DNA of 42,897 nucleotides from an uncultured Spirochaetota bacterium (lineage in GTDB: Bacteria; Spirochaetota; Spirochaetia; JAFGXN01). The notes beneath the pieces are model-generated. The model had not been told where the DNA came from and ran no database searches. It was given only the letters and a program-made list of their open reading frames with translations. Shown here piece after piece: positions 35,116 to 42,897 of the stretch. A program made the position numbers and the translations under genes. The DNA is taken from the NCBI GenBank assembly GCA_944388995.1, contig CALXKN010000015.1, positions 1 to 42,897 on the forward strand, given 5' to 3'. Positions within the stretch are counted from its first letter, which is position 1, and every line of letters starts with the position of its first letter.

Positions 35116-38100
35116 TTACGATGCGGCGATTTGCACCGCGTTTTCGCGGATCTGGTTGATCGCCGCCAGTAGGGCGCTTCGGGTGTTCGCGTCAAACAGC
35201 TTGATAAAGCTGACCGGTTTGTCAAACGGCGGCTTGGTCAGCTCCGCGGCGTTTTCCATATATCCATTCAGTTCTATATGATGGATGATCTTATGGACAA
35301 AGGCGATCTGCTTTTGATTTAAAGATTGATCATTTATAAAGGCAGAAAACGCCTGCATCGCCGCGTCGTGATCTAATTTGGCAATTTTTCGCACCAATAA
35401 CCCGAACGGCGTCTCTCCGAATTCCCGTTTGTAATCTTCTTCGCTTCCAAGCTCGCTGGTCAGCACGCGCTCCAACTCCCGATAATCGTTCCTTGTCAGC
35501 GGAATATTGTGGGTCAGTTTGTAAATCGCAAGCGTATTTCCGTGCTCGTTGACGTAGCGGTTGACTTTCGCGCGGTAATCCTCAAAACCGGCGTACGGCG
35601 GAACGGGTTCCCCGGCGACATCGGCGGTCACCGGATCGGTCAGGTTCGTGACAATGGTTTTTTGTCCGCTGCCGCTTTCATCCAAAAAGCGGATCAAATC
35701 CCGAAGCTGTCGCCGGGTTCGTTCAAACTGCAGAATGTCGTTGGCGTCCCAAAACGCGTCCGTCTGGATTTCCTTTAAGAGCGGCAGCTTCGCCTTAATT
35801 TGCGGAATGTTCGCCTTCCGTTCCAACAGGGCAGCGGTTTCGCAAAGCTGTTTCCTTGCGGTTTGAAAAGCGGGCGTTTGCCCGATGTACGCGAGAATCA
35901 GCCCGTATAGAAAATTGTCAAACCGCTTGGCAAATTCGTCCGTTTCTTCAAATTGAACGAGCGGCGCGATTTGCGAAAGGAGCTCTGTTTTTCCGCTTTC
36001 GCTGATCGATTGAAACGCTTCTTTGTGTTTGTATTTTTCTACGGCGTGCAGCTTGAGCTTGACGGAAATCAACTCCGGATTCAGCGCCGCGACCAGCTGG
36101 CGGCAGGTTTCGGTGATTTCGCCTCTCCACGCCTGATATTCGTCCGCGGCGAAGGCGCTTTCCTGCAAGGCTGCCGCGATTTGAACCAGCTCGCCAAATA
36201 GATTCTCCGACAGCGTTTTGGTCTCTTTTGCTTCATAGCCTTCTTGGTGCGCGCGGAAATATTCAAAATTGCCGCAGTAATCGAAAATCAAAAAGCGCCG
36301 CTTGTCCGTGTACAAGCCGTCAATCTGATCGACGCACGCCAATCCCTTACACAACCGCGTGCCGCGGCCAATCATCTGCCAGAACTTCGCTTTGGAACGC
36401 ACTTTTTTGAAGAACACCAGATTGACGCACTCGGGCACGTCGATGCCGGTGTCCATCATATCCACCGACACGGCGATTTGCGGTTCCTTTTCCGGCTGCT
36501 TGAAATCGTCGATAACAGTCTGCGCGTAGGCGTCGTCGCAGATGACGCGCTGGGCGAAGGTTCCGCGGTACTGCGGGTAGAGCTTGTTGAATCGCTCCAG
36601 AATGAACTCGGCGTGGCGCTTGTTCTGCGCGAAGACAATGGTTTTGCCCAGACGGTCGCCGCCTTCGATTTTGATGCCGCGTTCCATTAAATCCTGCAAA
36701 ACCAGATCCGCCGTTTTTTCGTTGAACACAAACTTGTTAAGCTTCTCCGACGGAATCCAATCCGGCAGAACGCCGTCTTCGATAAAATCGTCCTCATAGC
36801 GTTCTTTGTCTTCATCGGACAATTCGTCGTAGGCGATGCCTTCGTCCAGGAATTTGGTTTTCACCTCGTAATTGTAATACGGCACCAGCACATGATCCTG
36901 CCGCACAGCCGTTTCGTAATCGTAAGCGTAGGTGGGCACGCCGTGCTCCATTTCGAAGAAATCATAGGTGTTGCGGTCCACGTCGGTTTTCGGCGTGGCG
37001 GTGAGCCCCACCATCAGCGCGTCAAAGTACTCAAAAATCGCCCGGTATTTTTTGAAAATGCTCCGGTGGCTTTCATCAATGATGATCAGATCGAAATGCG
37101 CCGGGGTGAACAGCCGGCGGCCGTCTTTGGACTTGGTGTCGTCGATGGCGTTGAGAATGGTCGGGTAGGTGGAGAACACGATGCGGGCGTTCCGATCGTC
37201 TTTGTTGGAGCAGAGATTGCACAGGGACAGATCCGGCAGATAATTCTTAAAACCGTCTTTTGCCTGTTTAACCAGCGCGGTGCGGTCGGCTAAAAAGAGG
37301 ATGTTCGTGATCCACTTGCCGCGGCTGAGCACGTCTGCCAGGCTGGAAGCGGTTCTGGTTTTGCCGGTGCCGGTCGCCATGACCAGCAGGTGTTTGCGGA
37401 AGCCGTTCGCGATTTGATCGCAGACCGCCCGGATCGCCTCTTTTTGGTAATACCGGTCAGTGATGCGGTCGTCGATGGGAACGCGCGTTAAATCCATCCG
37501 TTCAGCGCGGCGGTTCATCAGTTTTTGTAAATCGTCCTTGCTGAACACGCCGCTGACTTTCCGCTGCGGGCCGGTCCGGTCATCCCAAAAATACGTTTCA
37601 AAGCCGTTGGTGGTGAACATCATCGGCCTGCGGCCGAATTGACGCTCCAAACAATCCGCGTACAGGACAGCCTGCTTGCGGCCAATGTTGGGATCTTTGC
37701 CGGTTCGCTTGGCTTCAATGACCGCGAGCGGAAGACCGTCCTTGCCGAACAGCACATAATCGCAAAAGCCCGGCTTTCCGTCCGCGCCGCTCATGCCTTG
37801 CACGGGGAACTCTTCCCGGACGTCCGCGTCCGGTCCGGTGAATTTCCAGCCCATGAGCTTTAAGTCCACATCGATGTAGATTTTGCGCGTCTGGAATTCG
37901 GAGAGGTCTTCCGGCTGGAAGACGCGTTCCTTTTGATGCTGTTCTTTTCCGGCAGTGTATTGCGCCGCCAGTTCTTCAATCTGTTTGCGAAGCGCCTCGA
38001 TTTCCGCTTCTTTTTCGTCCAGCAGCCTTTCCTGCTCTTTGATTTTCCGAGTATCAACCGCCGCCTTTTCGGCGGGGATTAGGCTTTCATCAAACGCGCG

Positions 38101-38493
38101 CTCCGCGTACTCCGCGCCGTAGCAGTAGTCAATCCACTGAATGAACTCAAACAAGCCTTTCAGCGAAGCGAGCGCGTCTCCGGGCTGTACGCTTCGTTCC
38201 GTGTGCACCGCCAGATTGCCGAGTTTGACGATGAAGGGCAGTTTGCTCCACGTTCGGGAGTCCAGCGCGAAGCGGAAGGTCGGGTCGTGAATGAGGGATT
38301 GCAGGTTGTCTTTGTAGGGCATTTCCATGGAAGTGTCGGCGGAATAGACCCATTTGACTGCCAACTCCAAAGCCTTCCGGCAGCCCACGGCGCACAGGGC
38401 GGGAGAGGAGGCATAGATTTTTTCCGCCTCGGTGCAGGCATGAGAGAAGAGGGCGTATTCGGGTTTGGTCTGAAGAAAGGTAAAGTTGGCCAA
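35116..38493 (-). CDS. hsdR: Type I restriction enzyme, R subunit
   Basis: This 1125-residue protein has an N-terminal DUF4145-like helical domain (residues 1-130, CRKALELAVKWVY) and a coiled coil (about 147-180). The PD-(D/E)xK nuclease has Asp245 and Glu260-x-Lys262 (CDYVLFG, VIEAKR). The superfamily 2 DNA translocase has Walker A ATGTGKT (373-379) and DESH (473-476), and VGLTATP and GRGTRLCKG motifs are also visible. HsdR cuts unmodified DNA after translocation in complex with HsdM and HsdS. The start is TTG 38493, nine bases after GGAGG. It has its own predicted promoter and is separated from hsdS by two other transcription units. It looks intact. Confidence 0.95.
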   Translation of the reverse strand: MANFTFLQTKPEYALFSHACTEAEKIYASSPALCAVGCRKALELAVKWVYSADTSMEMPYKDNLQSLIHDPTFRFALDSRTWSKLPFIVKLGNLAVHTERSVQPGDALASLKGLFEFIQWIDYCYGAEYAERAFDESLIPAEKAAVDTRKIKEQERLLDEKEAEIEALRKQIEELAAQYTAGKEQHQKERVFQPEDLSEFQTRKIYIDVDLKLMGWKFTGPDADVREEFPVQGMSGADGKPGFCDYVLFGKDGLPLAVIEAKRTGKDPNIGRKQAVLYADCLERQFGRRPMMFTTNGFETYFWDDRTGPQRKVSGVFSKDDLQKLMNRRAERMDLTRVPIDDRITDRYYQKEAIRAVCDQIANGFRKHLLVMATGTGKTRTASSLADVLSRGKWITNILFLADRTALVKQAKDGFKNYLPDLSLCNLCSNKDDRNARIVFSTYPTILNAIDDTKSKDGRRLFTPAHFDLIIIDESHRSIFKKYRAIFEYFDALMVGLTATPKTDVDRNTYDFFEMEHGVPTYAYDYETAVRQDHVLVPYYNYEVKTKFLDEGIAYDELSDEDKERYEDDFIEDGVLPDWIPSEKLNKFVFNEKTADLVLQDLMERGIKIEGGDRLGKTIVFAQNKRHAEFILERFNKLYPQYRGTFAQRVICDDAYAQTVIDDFKQPEKEPQIAVSVDMMDTGIDVPECVNLVFFKKVRSKAKFWQMIGRGTRLCKGLACVDQIDGLYTDKRRFLIFDYCGNFEYFRAHQEGYEAKETKTLSENLFGELVQIAAALQESAFAADEYQAWRGEITETCRQLVAALNPELISVKLKLHAVEKYKHKEAFQSISESGKTELLSQIAPLVQFEETDEFAKRFDNFLYGLILAYIGQTPAFQTARKQLCETAALLERKANIPQIKAKLPLLKEIQTDAFWDANDILQFERTRRQLRDLIRFLDESGSGQKTIVTNLTDPVTADVAGEPVPPYAGFEDYRAKVNRYVNEHGNTLAIYKLTHNIPLTRNDYRELERVLTSELGSEEDYKREFGETPFGLLVRKIAKLDHDAAMQAFSAFINDQSLNQKQIAFVHKIIHHIELNGYMENAAELTKPPFDKPVSFIKLFDANTRSALLAAINQIRENAVQIAAS

Positions 38494-38666: not shown

Positions 38667-39152
38667 CTATTCTTTTTCCGTTAAATAAAACCGGTGGTTC
38701 TTGTCCAAGAACACAACATAAAAAATATCCGTAGAAAGTTGTTTTTCCTGGGCTTCGGTTTCGTCAATAAAAAAGCCGATTAGCCGGACTTTTGATTCCA
38801 GCCGGAACCGTGCCCATTTAACGGTATCAGGAATATGGCGGGGATGGGTAAAATCAGAGTTCCTGGGAAAAGTGCCGTAAATTTCCAGTACCTTTAAACC
38901 GCCGCTTCCGGTTCTCTGGTTAAGCCAATACTGTTTATTTTCTTTTGAATACTCTTTGAGTTTATCTAGAAGCTTTGTTTTTTCGTTGTCATTCCAGTCT
39001 TTAAAATCCTGCCCCGCTTTTTGGCTTCCGTCAAAATACTTAAGACTGAAGGAAAGTTTGCCTCTCGCCTCGGCAATGTCACAAACAAATTCATCTTTGG
39101 GAAGGGATTGGAGAAATCTATCTTTGCGTGGATTCTGTCTTTTCTCTGCCAA
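38667..39152 (-). CDS. Small protein of unknown family overlapping ATPase gene (possible effector)
   Basis: About 161 residues if started at TTG 39152, which has GGGAGG 11 bases upstream; the longest reading starts at 39275 and would give 202 residues. It overlaps the ATPase gene end by 35 bp (158 bp for the long form), so the two are almost certainly coupled. The protein is rich in Lys, Asp and Phe, with no signal peptide or membrane segment. Toward the C-terminus the pattern KWARFRLESKVRLIGFFI, then FYVVFLDKNHRFY, suggests a small compact alpha/beta domain. I do not recognise the family and see no HNH, TOPRIM or RloB motif. By position it could be the toxin or nuclease of a two-gene defence unit; this is inference only. 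Confidence 0.65.
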   Translation of the reverse strand: MAEKRQNPRKDRFLQSLPKDEFVCDIAEARGKLSFSLKYFDGSQKAGQDFKDWNDNEKTKLLDKLKEYSKENKQYWLNQRTGSGGLKVLEIYGTFPRNSDFTHPRHIPDTVKWARFRLESKVRLIGFFIDETEAQEKQLSTDIFYVVFLDKNHRFYLTEKE

Positions 39153-40302
39153 TTTTTGGGAATCCTCCCACCAGATGTTTTTTATAAGGTATGGAAACAG
39201 GCCTGTCGTTCCGCAAGTTGGGCGACTTGGGTTCATCCAAACGATAGCAGAAACTTTCGTTCTGTTCTTTTTCAAAAATATAGGTTCTGTAACGACCGAG
39301 AATATCCATAATATCCGTATTATGGCTGGTAAAAATCAGCTGGGCGTTTTTTGGATTCTTTTCTTTGACAAGAAACAAATCCAAAAGATGAGGCAGAATA
39401 TCCGGATGCAGGTTAATGTCAAATTCATCAAGAACTAAGACACCTCCCGTTGAAAGTACCGAGTAGTAATTCATCAGTGTGCCAAAGAGTGTTTTTGTAC
39501 CGCTGGATTCATCGTTGTATAATAAACGTTTGGTTTCCTTATTTTCAAGAGTGTGGTAAAAAACAGGAAAAGAAATAATCTGATTATATTCATTTTTCCG
39601 AGTTTCTATTTTGATATCGTCAATACCGGTATCGAACTGTCTGATTTTAGAAGCAACGAAAGCAAGGTGTTCCGGGTGTGATCGATAAAACTGTGCTGCA
39701 CCCAAAATATCCCTGGCTTTTGAATCGGATAATCCTGTATAACTGACATTGATAACAAAATAGAAAAAAAAATCAAAAATTTCTTTGATTTCTGGTAAAC
39801 CATATTGATTTAATGTACAGATAAAAGAGGCATTATCTCTGAACAAAATATCGGCATGACCTTTGTAAAGACTGTTTTTTACAACAGTGTTTCTGTTGCG
39901 TGTAAAAATTTCCGTTTCCCTAGAACCGGGGGCGGCTTTTTTTCTAAATAATCGCTCGGAGAGAACAACCTTAGGTGAAACTTCCAATTCATACCGGTAA
40001 TAAATACCGTTTTGTATGAACTCAATATATAATTCGGAAGGTTCTTTATTAAAGAAAAACGAATCAACCAAAATCTCGTCATTTGGCTTTGTTTGAAAAC
40101 TGAGTTCGGCAAAATATGTTATAAAAGCCAAAATTTTAAGAGCGTTTGTTTTACCCGAAGCATTGGCTCCCTTAAAACACATTGCCGTTGCAGCGGGAAG
40201 ATTCAACGAAATATCAGAAGGCACGGAACCGTCCAGCTCCAGATCAACCTGCATCCAGTCCTTAAAGCACCAGCAGTTTTTGGCACCGTATCCCAACAAC
40301 AT
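39118..40302 (-). CDS. AAA/ABC-type ATPase, COG1106 (RloA/AbiL-like)
   Basis: The 394-residue ATPase starts with the typical COG1106 N-terminus (MLLGYGAKNCWCFKDW). It has Walker A GANASGKT (45-52), an ABC-like signature NDESSGTK (263-270), Walker B VLVLDEFD (288-295) and the switch His in SHNTD (326-330), followed by the RPVSIPYKKHLVGGFPKIG ending common in this group. Such SMC/Rad50-like ATPases act as sensors in defence systems (RloA, AbiL, PARIS AriA, Septu PtuA), each with a different small effector. This gene has its own consensus promoter and is followed by an overlapping small ORF. Base composition is AT-rich compared with hsdR, suggesting separate acquisition. The start ATG 40302 follows GGGGGCAGG. 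Confidence 0.88.
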   Translation of the reverse strand: MLLGYGAKNCWCFKDWMQVDLELDGSVPSDISLNLPAATAMCFKGANASGKTNALKILAFITYFAELSFQTKPNDEILVDSFFFNKEPSELYIEFIQNGIYYRYELEVSPKVVLSERLFRKKAAPGSRETEIFTRNRNTVVKNSLYKGHADILFRDNASFICTLNQYGLPEIKEIFDFFFYFVINVSYTGLSDSKARDILGAAQFYRSHPEHLAFVASKIRQFDTGIDDIKIETRKNEYNQIISFPVFYHTLENKETKRLLYNDESSGTKTLFGTLMNYYSVLSTGGVLVLDEFDINLHPDILPHLLDLFLVKEKNPKNAQLIFTSHNTDIMDILGRYRTYIFEKEQNESFCYRLDEPKSPNLRNDRPVSIPYKKHLVGGFPKIGREKTESTQR

Positions 40303-40327
40303 AGACCTGCCCCCTTATTTTGATTAA

Positions 40328-40356
40328 ATTATAGTTTATCAACATATTTTTGTCAA
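40328..40356 (-). promoter_or_regulatory. Consensus promoter of ATPase/small-protein unit
   Basis: On the minus strand TTGACA (40351-40356) and TATAAT (40328-40333) are separated by exactly 17 bases; both boxes are perfect sigma-70-type consensus. The ATPase start codon is about 25 bases downstream. It is the strongest-looking promoter in the window. Confidence 0.8.
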
Positions 40357-40372
40357 GTTTTGACAAAAATAT
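40344..40372. promoter_or_regulatory. 13-bp inverted repeat covering the -35 box (probable operator)
   Basis: ATATTTTTGTCAA (40344-40356) and TTGACAAAAATAT (40360-40372) are a perfect inverted repeat around a 3-bp centre. One arm contains the -35 box and part of the spacer, so a bound protein would block polymerase. There is no T tract on the minus strand after the stem, which argues against its being a simple terminator of the HAD gene. Confidence 0.65.
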
Positions 40373-40447
40373 TTACTTAAAAAAAGATCAAAGGGTCCGA
40401 TGAGGGGAAAAGACTAGGAAAAATACAAATAAAGCAAGATAATACGA

Positions 40448-41626
40448 TTATAAATCATCTTCATTTATCATTGCCATAATATCCTGTGCTTCTTTTGTCA
40501 TTGTTTTTAGACTATAAATTAACTTTTTGTAAAAAATTGATACATCTAAATCACGTAATATGTAACACACTTGACTATTCTCAAGTGCAATTTTAAATAA
40601 AACCACTTTTTCTTCAAACGTCCAATTATCAACTTCTTGTAATTTACTGATAATGGAATGTGTTGTGGCAAAACTGCCGCTATTTTCTAAGGCAATGATT
40701 AAATCACTTTTTTTACGTTCACTTTCATTGACATTTTTATCGGCGTTGATTTGTTCATTTTTGTATTGATAATGCAGAGTTTCCAAAACTTCATTGGTAG
40801 CAGTGCGGTCGATGATGTTTTTAATCAAAATATCCAGTTCTGAATTTTCCGTATAATCGGCCGGGACAAAATATTTGATTCTGCCATCTCGCATCATTTT
40901 ATATACTTTTGTCTTGTCTTTGCTTTCTGCGTTGTAGACTCCAATAGAATGTCCGCCATAAGAATTCACCAGTTTCATGCAGGGAATATCAGTATCGCTG
41001 TCTCCGATATAAATCATATTGCGGAAAGGAACCCGCATTTCTTCGGGAGAAAATGATTCGTTTACGCCGGGATCGTTAATGTCCAAAACACCTTTTTCAA
41101 TACGGAACAAAAACTGCGTTTTATTGGTATAGTTGACAACTTGTGCCGGCCATACCGCCACCCCTTTTTTGTTATAATAAAAAGAACTGGCATAGATTTT
41201 TTCAAAGGCTCCGTTTTTTGCCACTGATGTTCCTTCAATTATCTCTTTCAGACCGGAAGAAATAATATAATGTTCTACGATAACCTTTTTCTCTTTTCCG
41301 TATTCCCGAATCCGTTCAAACCATTGTTCCACACCGGGAAAAAGCTGAACCTTAGAACCGTATTCCGCCAGTTTTTCTTTCGTAAACAAAACTTTGCCTT
41401 CCGATTCCTCTCTCATGGTATACATATAGGCAAGGTTTTGATCCATGTCGTTTTCTTCGGCAATACCGTTTGACTTTTGCCAAAAATCAGCAACATCATA
41501 TCCTACCGATTGAATATATCCCTGTGCCTGCATATCGTCAGGAGTTAAGGTTTTATCAAAATCGTAACAAATTGCAACAACAGGGTTAACCTCTTTGTGC
41601 TTACGCTCGTATTCTTTATCCGGCAT
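40448..41626 (-). CDS. HAD-superfamily phosphatase with extra C-terminal helical domain, in hsdMS operon
   Basis: Of 392 residues, the first 270 or so form a phosphoserine-phosphatase-like HAD domain: motif I DFDKT (Asp22, Asp24), motif II ISSG, motif III YIGDSDTDIPCMK, all catalytic positions present. After a Lys/Asn/Glu-rich linker (about 285-310) comes a helical domain of about 80 residues (THSIISKLQEVDNWTFEEKV onward) that I do not recognise. ATG 41626 follows AAGGAGG, and the gap to hsdS is 12 bp, so it is co-transcribed with hsdM and hsdS. Being cytoplasmic and adjacent to restriction genes, it might process nucleic-acid ends, a nucleotide signal or a phosphoprotein; the substrate is unknown. 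Confidence 0.82.
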   Translation of the reverse strand: MPDKEYERKHKEVNPVVAICYDFDKTLTPDDMQAQGYIQSVGYDVADFWQKSNGIAEENDMDQNLAYMYTMREESEGKVLFTKEKLAEYGSKVQLFPGVEQWFERIREYGKEKKVIVEHYIISSGLKEIIEGTSVAKNGAFEKIYASSFYYNKKGVAVWPAQVVNYTNKTQFLFRIEKGVLDINDPGVNESFSPEEMRVPFRNMIYIGDSDTDIPCMKLVNSYGGHSIGVYNAESKDKTKVYKMMRDGRIKYFVPADYTENSELDILIKNIIDRTATNEVLETLHYQYKNEQINADKNVNESERKKSDLIIALENSGSFATTHSIISKLQEVDNWTFEEKVVLFKIALENSQVCYILRDLDVSIFYKKLIYSLKTMTKEAQDIMAMINEDDL

Positions 41627-41638
41627 GAAAATCCTCCT

Positions 41639-42793
41639 TTACCCAAAGTATTCCTGCATCAGCGCCTTTTTCAGTATTTCCAGTTTTTCAAGGCTTTTTT
41701 GGATTGCAGTTTTCGTCTTGTCGGTCTGGGCAACGAACGCGGCAAAGCGGTTTTGCAAATCGAGCGATGGAACGGGAATACAAATATTTTCCACGATGGT
41801 TTTGGATATTTCTTTGAACGTCGCGCCTCTGCCGAGAGAATTAAGATAATCTACGTTGAGTAATAGCAGAGTATATAAATATCTAGGTATGATAGTTTCG
41901 TTGCAAATTATATTTTTAAAACCTTGGTTGCAATAGAAAGGATTTCCCGCAATAGCGAGTTTCCCAATAGGAGCTCTGGAAGATAGAAGCACTGTGCCGG
42001 TTGGCATTTCTTGCAGCGAGCAACTTTCTACACCGGCTTTTGTTAATTTCCTCACAGAATCGAAAATGTATCCGCTGTCTGCTTCCAACTCTGCTGGCGT
42101 GATCCATCGGTAGGGGCCTCCCCAAAACTCTTCTTGTTCTGTTTTTGGAGTCGCGCCGCTTGCAACAGTTCCAATGTCTTTTATCGTCATCCACGAGGTT
42201 TGCGCTTTCGATAAGTCACAATCCCCGAACATCTCGATAAATCGGGATTTCACCAATTCATCCAGCTTTTTGAGCTGCTGGCGGCGTTTGGCAATCAGGT
42301 CGCTGACCTTGTCCAGTACCGCCGCAATTTTACGCTGTTCGTCGAGAGGTGGGAGGGGAAGTTCTATTTCAGCTATACGGCTTTTTCTAACTGATGGAAT
42401 TGTAGTGGATTCACAGTAAGATTGCAAATCGATGCTACACATAAAATAGTAAAGGTAACGTGTATTTAAATTGTTGTTGTTTGTATGGATTCCCATTGCA
42501 TTATTATCGATAAGGCAATAATTTTCTGTTATTGCTCTGCGATTTAACCGTAGAGCTTCTCCAATTTTAGCAAAAACAATAGTTTGGGGAGGAAGAATTG
42601 TTCCGTGGATTTCTTTGACTACATTGTCGTCGATATAGTTTTCGCAGTACTTTAATTCTTGAGTGCCAAGAAGTACATTCTTTGAAATATCCCCAACCTT
42701 ATAAAAGGGATATTTTCCATTTCTATTTCCTTGAAATTTATTTGGAAATCCTGTTCCAGAAAAGAAAGTACAAACTTCCCCTAACTTCGCCAT
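41639..42793 (-). CDS. hsdS: Type I restriction-modification specificity subunit
   Basis: This 384-residue protein has two target-recognition domains (about residues 1-140 and 195-335). Each is followed by a conserved region with a coiled coil: LPPLDEQRKIAAVLDKVSDL, and at the end VPSLDLQNRFAAFVAQTD. HsdS reads the bipartite DNA target and assembles with HsdM and HsdR. ATG 42793 overlaps the hsdM stop (TGATG); a GTG one codon earlier (42796) is an equal alternative. It is a complete gene with no sign of an internal stop. Confidence 0.93.
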   Translation of the reverse strand: MAKLGEVCTFFSGTGFPNKFQGNRNGKYPFYKVGDISKNVLLGTQELKYCENYIDDNVVKEIHGTILPPQTIVFAKIGEALRLNRRAITENYCLIDNNAMGIHTNNNNLNTRYLYYFMCSIDLQSYCESTTIPSVRKSRIAEIELPLPPLDEQRKIAAVLDKVSDLIAKRRQQLKKLDELVKSRFIEMFGDCDLSKAQTSWMTIKDIGTVASGATPKTEQEEFWGGPYRWITPAELEADSGYIFDSVRKLTKAGVESCSLQEMPTGTVLLSSRAPIGKLAIAGNPFYCNQGFKNIICNETIIPRYLYTLLLLNVDYLNSLGRGATFKEISKTIVENICIPVPSLDLQNRFAAFVAQTDKTKTAIQKSLEKLEILKKALMQEYFG

Positions 42794-42897
42794 CACAGCA
42801 TCCCCTTCAGTTCTTTCAGTCCTGCGGTGATTTCTTCTTCCAGTGTATGCAGTTCCGCCATGATGTGGGAGGTGGGAGGATATTCCACCGGTACATA
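42793..42897 (-). CDS. hsdM: Type I DNA methyltransferase (M subunit), C-terminal end only
   Basis: This frame enters the window on the minus strand and ends at TGA 42793-42795, giving the last 34 residues. The ending IMAELHTLEEEITAGLKELK is the short helical C-terminus typical of HsdM, and the position directly before hsdS with a TGATG overlap supports it. The methylase motifs lie outside the window. Confidence 0.75.
   Translation of the reverse strand, partial: YVPVEYPPTSHIMAELHTLEEEITAGLKELKGML

Follow-up and report, generated by a model that had tools for sequence, protein, structure and literature searches.

The protein encoded at positions 40448-41626 of a 42,897-nucleotide stretch of DNA from an uncultured Spirochaetota bacterium (hereafter the window) joins a predicted HAD phosphatase to a helical C-terminal tail. 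By sequence comparison, this tail is a module that recurs on no fewer than two other classes of enzyme, PIN and TIR. The identity of the HAD tail as such a recurring module is what is new here. We predict that the protein is a two-part antiviral effector that is controlled by its tail and probably dephosphorylates a nucleotide, and that its gene is cargo within a type I restriction operon; we give this reading an even chance of being right.

The gene and its operon neighbours are these:

35116-38493, reverse strand: hsdR, 1125 aa (PADLOC REase_I, E=4.1e-164)
40448-41626, reverse strand: HAD phosphatase gene, long-form PDC-S34, 392 aa, ATG start (open reading frame; PADLOC PDLC05001; Pfam PF12710)
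41627-41638, reverse strand: 12-bp gap between hsdS and the HAD gene, with an AGGAGG ribosome site (from the sequence)
41639-42796, reverse strand: hsdS, 385 aa (Pfam PF01420 (Methylase_S), E=4.6e-51)
42793-42897, reverse strand: final 34 codons and stop of hsdM, truncated by the contig end at 42897 (translation YVPVEYPP...LKGML, then stop)

The hsdS stop at 41639 falls 12 bp before the HAD start, and the gap, AGGAGGATTTTC on the coding strand, contains a strong ribosome site. An earlier reading of the letters alone (the sequence-only reading) had noted this arrangement, and the AGGAGG confirms it. It had also described the gene as co-transcribed with hsdMS. From the gene spacing we infer that the HAD gene is indeed co-transcribed with hsdM and hsdS. 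Just the last 34 codons of hsdM lie in the window. This remnant overlaps the start of hsdS, and the remainder is missing beyond the contig edge; locus L002, whose HAD protein is 88% identical, has the gene order hsdM-hsdS-HAD. Between the HAD gene and hsdR the window holds an AbiLi-like ATPase and a 202-aa open reading frame, so hsdR is not directly next. Lying between hsdS and hsdR, this PDC-S34 gene is embedded in a defence system.

The gene belongs to a known candidate family. The PADLOC profile PDLC05001 (PDC-S34) matches the protein at full length (residues 4-387, E=4.6e-199), and PADLOC thus already models the full architecture. The PADLOC PDCs are phage-defence candidates from a guilt-by-embedding survey, and most are untested. 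The literature searched contained no paper naming PDC-S34, no published function or mechanism, and nothing on the activity, toxicity or phage protection of its members; nor did the sources searched link its tail to other effectors. HAD phosphatases recur in defence loci without a known role, as is stated for the defence system DS-9, which includes a HAD gene whose role is unknown.

The enzyme part of the protein comprises:

40757-41626, reverse strand: HAD core, residues 1-290, C1-capped phosphatase fold (AlphaFold pLDDT 93; Foldseek)
41549-41563, reverse strand: HAD motif I, D22-x-D24-x-T26 (invariant in 50 homologues)
41255-41260, reverse strand: HAD motif II, S123-S124 (at least 90% conserved in 50 homologues)
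41120-41122, reverse strand: probable HAD motif III lysine, K169 (invariant in 50 homologues; assigned to motif III from its position)
40988-41002, reverse strand: HAD motif IV, D209-x-x-x-D213, GDSDTD (invariant in 50 homologues)

Alignment and modelling show that these N-terminal 290 residues constitute a complete predicted C1-capped HAD phosphatase. All HAD catalytic motifs had been reported as present, and the alignment of 50 homologues agrees: D22, D24, T26, K169, D209 and D213 are all invariant and S123/S124 nearly so, which supplies motifs I (DxDxT), II (S/T), III (K) and IV (GDxxxD) of the superfamily. The model, Foldseek and Pfam (PF12710, E=1.5e-8, above the cut-off) all indicate a Rossmannoid HAD core with a helical cap.

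Among PDB structures, Foldseek places the core closest to human cytosolic 5'-nucleotidase III, at 1.4e-7, and to phosphoserine phosphatase, at 2.3e-7. Because these are the closest folds, we infer a nucleotide substrate, as a reasonable reading and not a result; the scores of phosphoserine phosphatases equal those of nucleotidases, so the fold does not settle the substrate. We also considered a nucleic-acid end-phosphatase. A BFVD fold search returned just generic viral HAD and polynucleotide-kinase matches, and because these are generic the role is unsupported past the superfamily level. Of the tasks first suggested for the protein, direct evidence was found for neither end repair, nor removal of a phage modification, nor neutralisation of a neighbour.

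The remainder of the protein is the tail:

40463-40726, reverse strand: C-terminal helical module, residues 301-388 (AlphaFold helices; tail comparisons)
40511-40705, reverse strand: conserved module core, residues 308-372, with N-x-Q (alignments A2 and A3)

The sequence-only reading had set apart an extra C-terminal helical domain, and the fold prediction bears this out: residues 301-388 are predicted helical with a mean pLDDT of 93, the helices spanning residues 301-314, 319-330, 337-349, 351-355, 360-371 and 378-388. Its description as unrecognised is half right, since Pfam has no match to the domain but PDC-S34 covers the whole architecture. Searched alone, the tail found nothing significant in Pfam or among PDB sequences, and scans of viral contigs with the HAD protein and with a Bacteroidota TIR protein found no relatives.

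Plasmids gave a different answer. A tblastn search of all plasmids (7.3 billion bases) with the tail alone (∼100 aa) matched the C-termini of PIN proteins on P1-like IncY plasmids (E 2e-6), as well as a Bacteroidota PIN-like gene split across two frames. The N-terminal domain of the PIN proteins is PF16289/PF18476 (Pfam), and their tails are 37-43% identical to the HAD tail. A profile made from HAD tails only scores the PIN tails at E down to ∼1e-18, and profile-profile comparison of HAD and PIN tails (hhalign) gives 6.8e-18. The helix arrangement also matches: in separate models of the HAD and PIN proteins the helices run in one register with a near-constant offset of ∼75 residues, the PIN model being reliable in its C-terminal part only. 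On the P1-like IncY phage-plasmids (L170:5290-6240; IMG/VR L175-L182) the PIN gene is flanked by ref on one side and by a gene for an N-6 DNA methylase on the other.

Tail-profile genome searches and one search with the PD-T7-3 family profile yielded the TIR proteins L173, L190 and L197. The TIR domain is confirmed by Pfam in L173 and L190, and L197 reads as TIR from its sequence. TIR proteins with the module at or near the end (L173:607-1797, L190:1372-2454, L197:325-978, L191:2914-3882) occur in unrelated phyla, both on plasmids and on chromosomes. Aligned without a related Klebsiella TIR protein (L194) that lacks the tail signal, the TIR tails match HAD tails at 2.2e-8 and PIN tails at 4.8e-10 (hhalign); those TIR proteins that had not been chosen by their tails give, on their own, 6.2e-7 and 3.2e-9, respectively. 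The best E values among 62 control alignments from 31 neighbouring families were 0.02-0.08, so that both the PIN (6.8e-18) and the TIR (2.2e-8) homology to HAD tails stands well apart from the controls. Single TIR sequences score weakly, at 16-22 bits, near chance matches such as L168 and L174. These two, a sigma-factor-like protein and a DUF3871 protein, respectively (17-20 bits with the tail profile), were discounted as probable chance hits, having no other support.

The module is thus 65-90 aa long, helical and at or near the C-terminus of its carriers. Its N-x-Q signature is invariant when HAD, PIN and TIR tails are aligned jointly; in the HAD-only alignment the N is invariant and the Q at least 90% conserved. 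The tail is common to PIN and TIR proteins, and the enzyme part therefore appears interchangeable. The module is probably also present on PD-T7-3, an anti-phage protein that protects E. coli experimentally and is listed as HEPN. For two TIR tails, PD-T7-3 and PDC-S34 were the sole PADLOC matches, at corresponding positions, the PD-T7-3 C-terminus matching best. This link is made through library-profile matches and is weaker than those to PIN and TIR; the PD-T7-3 profile did not match HAD tails directly.

We then turn to where the homologues lie. The loci comprise forty from species genomes and further ones from Spirochaetota, the clostridia-like phylum of L004, Bacteroidota and plasmids. Type I genes lie within 5 kb of 13 of 39 long-form homologues and 5 of 53 short-form ones, in a census of loci pulled by similarity searches rather than sampled at random, with HsdM, HsdS and HsdR models built from the collected loci. 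This is not the regular linkage to hsdMSR of a type I subunit, and with these counts we dropped the notion of a fixed or dedicated subunit. The assignment of the gene to the restriction operon consequently stands for its placement after hsdS, but not for membership of the restriction enzyme, given that 26 of the 39 long forms (67%) and 48 of the 53 short forms lie away from type I loci. The sequence-only reading had held that such a majority would make the association incidental. Most homologues are indeed elsewhere, but incidental is the wrong word, since the association greatly exceeds a chance level of 2% (our own rough estimate, which makes the binomial p-value indicative only) and recurs on several separate branches. 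The tree groups the long forms in a single clade that includes some short forms, with about five changes of state; the restriction label switches 14 times, and the association has therefore been gained or lost repeatedly. The tail is missing from many relatives, among them the plasmid forms found in type I operons. We regard the HAD gene as mobile cargo that frequently sits between hsdS and hsdR, rather than as a restriction subunit.

Two observations concern the loci themselves. Frameshifts or stops disrupt the HAD homologues L029, L138, L141, L165 and L098, which is what one expects of dispensable accessory genes. In the Bacteroidota loci L022, L024 and L029 the HAD gene is immediately preceded by a gene of ∼638 aa; the three are mutually homologous, and the L022 copy is an Hsp70 (Pfam).

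Could the cargo be metabolic? A mobile HAD phosphatase of metabolism or nucleotide salvage might hitch-hike in restriction operons as insertion hotspots, its tail being an oligomerisation domain with no immune role. The majority of homologues do lie outside defence loci: most are not beside recognised defence genes in a scan that covered immediate neighbours, and few of the 70 neighbours of non-restriction long forms match PADLOC. In Butyrivibrio the gene lies among sugar and signalling genes. A distant PDC-S34 form of 290 aa occupies a conserved place in many or most sampled species of one spirochaete family (L145, L146, L147 and similar), and because of this conserved place part of the family, the distant form, is possibly housekeeping. 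(In many of those genomes this form lies about 2-20 kb from the chromosome end.) Against a metabolic role stand the tail shared with PIN and TIR proteins, the proven anti-phage activity of PD-T7-3, the near-seamless hsdS-HAD and HAD-hsdR junctions, and a patchy distribution (15 of 398 and 9 of 296 genomes). On balance we consider the metabolic explanation unlikely, though a serious competitor.

The HAD-hsdR junctions bear also on a second alternative, in which the protein is a functional accessory of the type I enzyme, dependent on HsdMSR and acting on ends or nucleotides from HsdR cleavage or on phage countermeasures. In seven relatives hsdR starts within 13 bp of the HAD gene or overlaps it, mostly with hsdM-hsdS upstream. 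Alphaproteobacterial plasmids use the same slot: a tail-less HAD gene overlaps hsdR by 4 bp and follows hsdS in one plasmid and a Shedu gene in two. (The type I operons of these plasmids, L089, L090 and L091, carry extra genes for RhuM, HAD and an SprT-like protease, mostly overlapping, with Shedu in two of the three.) This tight packing speaks for an accessory. However, 67% of the long forms have no type I genes nearby, and some homologues have type IV or type IIG restriction genes, a Hachiman-like HamB, ZacBC or an LmuB-like gene as neighbours instead. The hsdS-hsdR slot also takes unrelated cargo such as DarTG2, and the best structural matches are small-molecule phosphatases. We therefore hold the accessory role to be distinctly improbable.

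In the window itself the slot contains a second set of features:

40328-40356, reverse strand: perfect sigma70 consensus promoter of the AbiLi-like cassette, TTGACA-17-TATAAT (12/12 consensus match)
39118-40302, reverse strand: AbiLi-like AAA ATPase in a nested cassette, outside the HAD unit (PADLOC AbiLi E=2.4e-59, AriA 8.9e-33)
38667-39275, reverse strand: 202-aa open reading frame after AbiLi, probable partner, its true start probably further downstream (open reading frame)

The -35 box of the promoter overlaps an operator-like inverted repeat at 40335-40381, and the 202-aa frame has no family match. The whole of 38667-40381 resembles a self-regulated cassette inserted between the HAD gene and hsdR. 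The cassette is absent from this place in seven relatives, and because these join HAD directly to hsdR it was probably inserted later and is probably transcribed separately. The suggestion that the HAD protein neutralises the neighbouring effector fails on these points, and we dropped it. Only physical proximity favours the HAD protein as a regulator or antidote, whether by clearing a nucleotide signal or by restraining the AbiLi-like protein. The cassette is driven from a consensus promoter of its own, comes with an operator-like repeat and is missing in relatives, which makes this role very improbable.

A defence role for the HAD gene is plausible, and we return to the tail-controlled antiviral effector as our preferred reading. 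The common tail would keep the enzyme inactive, oligomerise it or sense a shared infection cue. Once triggered, the HAD domain would remove phosphate from a small substrate, a nucleotide being the likeliest, and would halt phage replication much as other effectors that deplete nucleotides do. The restriction system of the host operon and the HAD effector would then form two layers, the effector being no subunit of the restriction enzyme. More tentatively, and with rather less than even confidence, we propose that the N-x-Q module is the common trigger or partner-binding domain of an unnamed class of single-gene immune effectors, with HAD phosphatase, PIN/HEPN nucleases and TIR NADase swapped onto one sensor. 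If so, a single infection cue could be coupled to various means of arresting either cell or phage.

The tail link between PDC-S34 and PIN, TIR and PD-T7-3 proteins offers a concrete starting point for asking how a HAD effector of this kind could be controlled. A shared module predicts that tails can be exchanged between enzymes. Should this be true, a modular effector design would be defined, and its trigger could be studied in E. coli PD-T7-3 and the results transferred to the candidate families.

How does the protein compare with known systems? It has the same full-length architecture as PDC-S34 (a single gene in PADLOC), with no family difference. DarTG2, embedded in a type I system between hsdS and hsdR (PMC12255303), is likewise defence cargo in the slot of the HAD gene; unlike it, DarTG2 is a toxin-antitoxin pair, with no homology to HAD. 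Cytosolic 5'-nucleotidase III and phosphoserine phosphatase are the closest solved folds to the HAD core, but at ∼10-18% identity and without the C-terminal module. Chp, a CARF-HAD phosphatase effector of type III-A CRISPR (PMC12715507), depletes ATP and IMP, although point mutations in its HAD motifs did not abolish toxicity. It is a precedent for the proposed role, a HAD phosphatase domain acting as an anti-phage effector. Chp, however, has transmembrane helices and a CARF sensor, whereas in the window protein the helical module would be the sensor or control. Pfam and NCBIfam scans gave no CARF match, which places the protein outside the CARF-HAD type, and no cyclic-nucleotide gene was seen here. 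PD-T7-3 has an enzyme domain reported as HEPN where the window protein has HAD; the C-terminal ∼95 positions of its profile match PIN and TIR tails that also match the HAD tail. Finally, the PIN/DUF4935 proteins of P1-like IncY phage-plasmids differ in being phage-plasmid-borne and in their N-terminal PIN nuclease domain, but share with the window protein a homologous C-terminal module.
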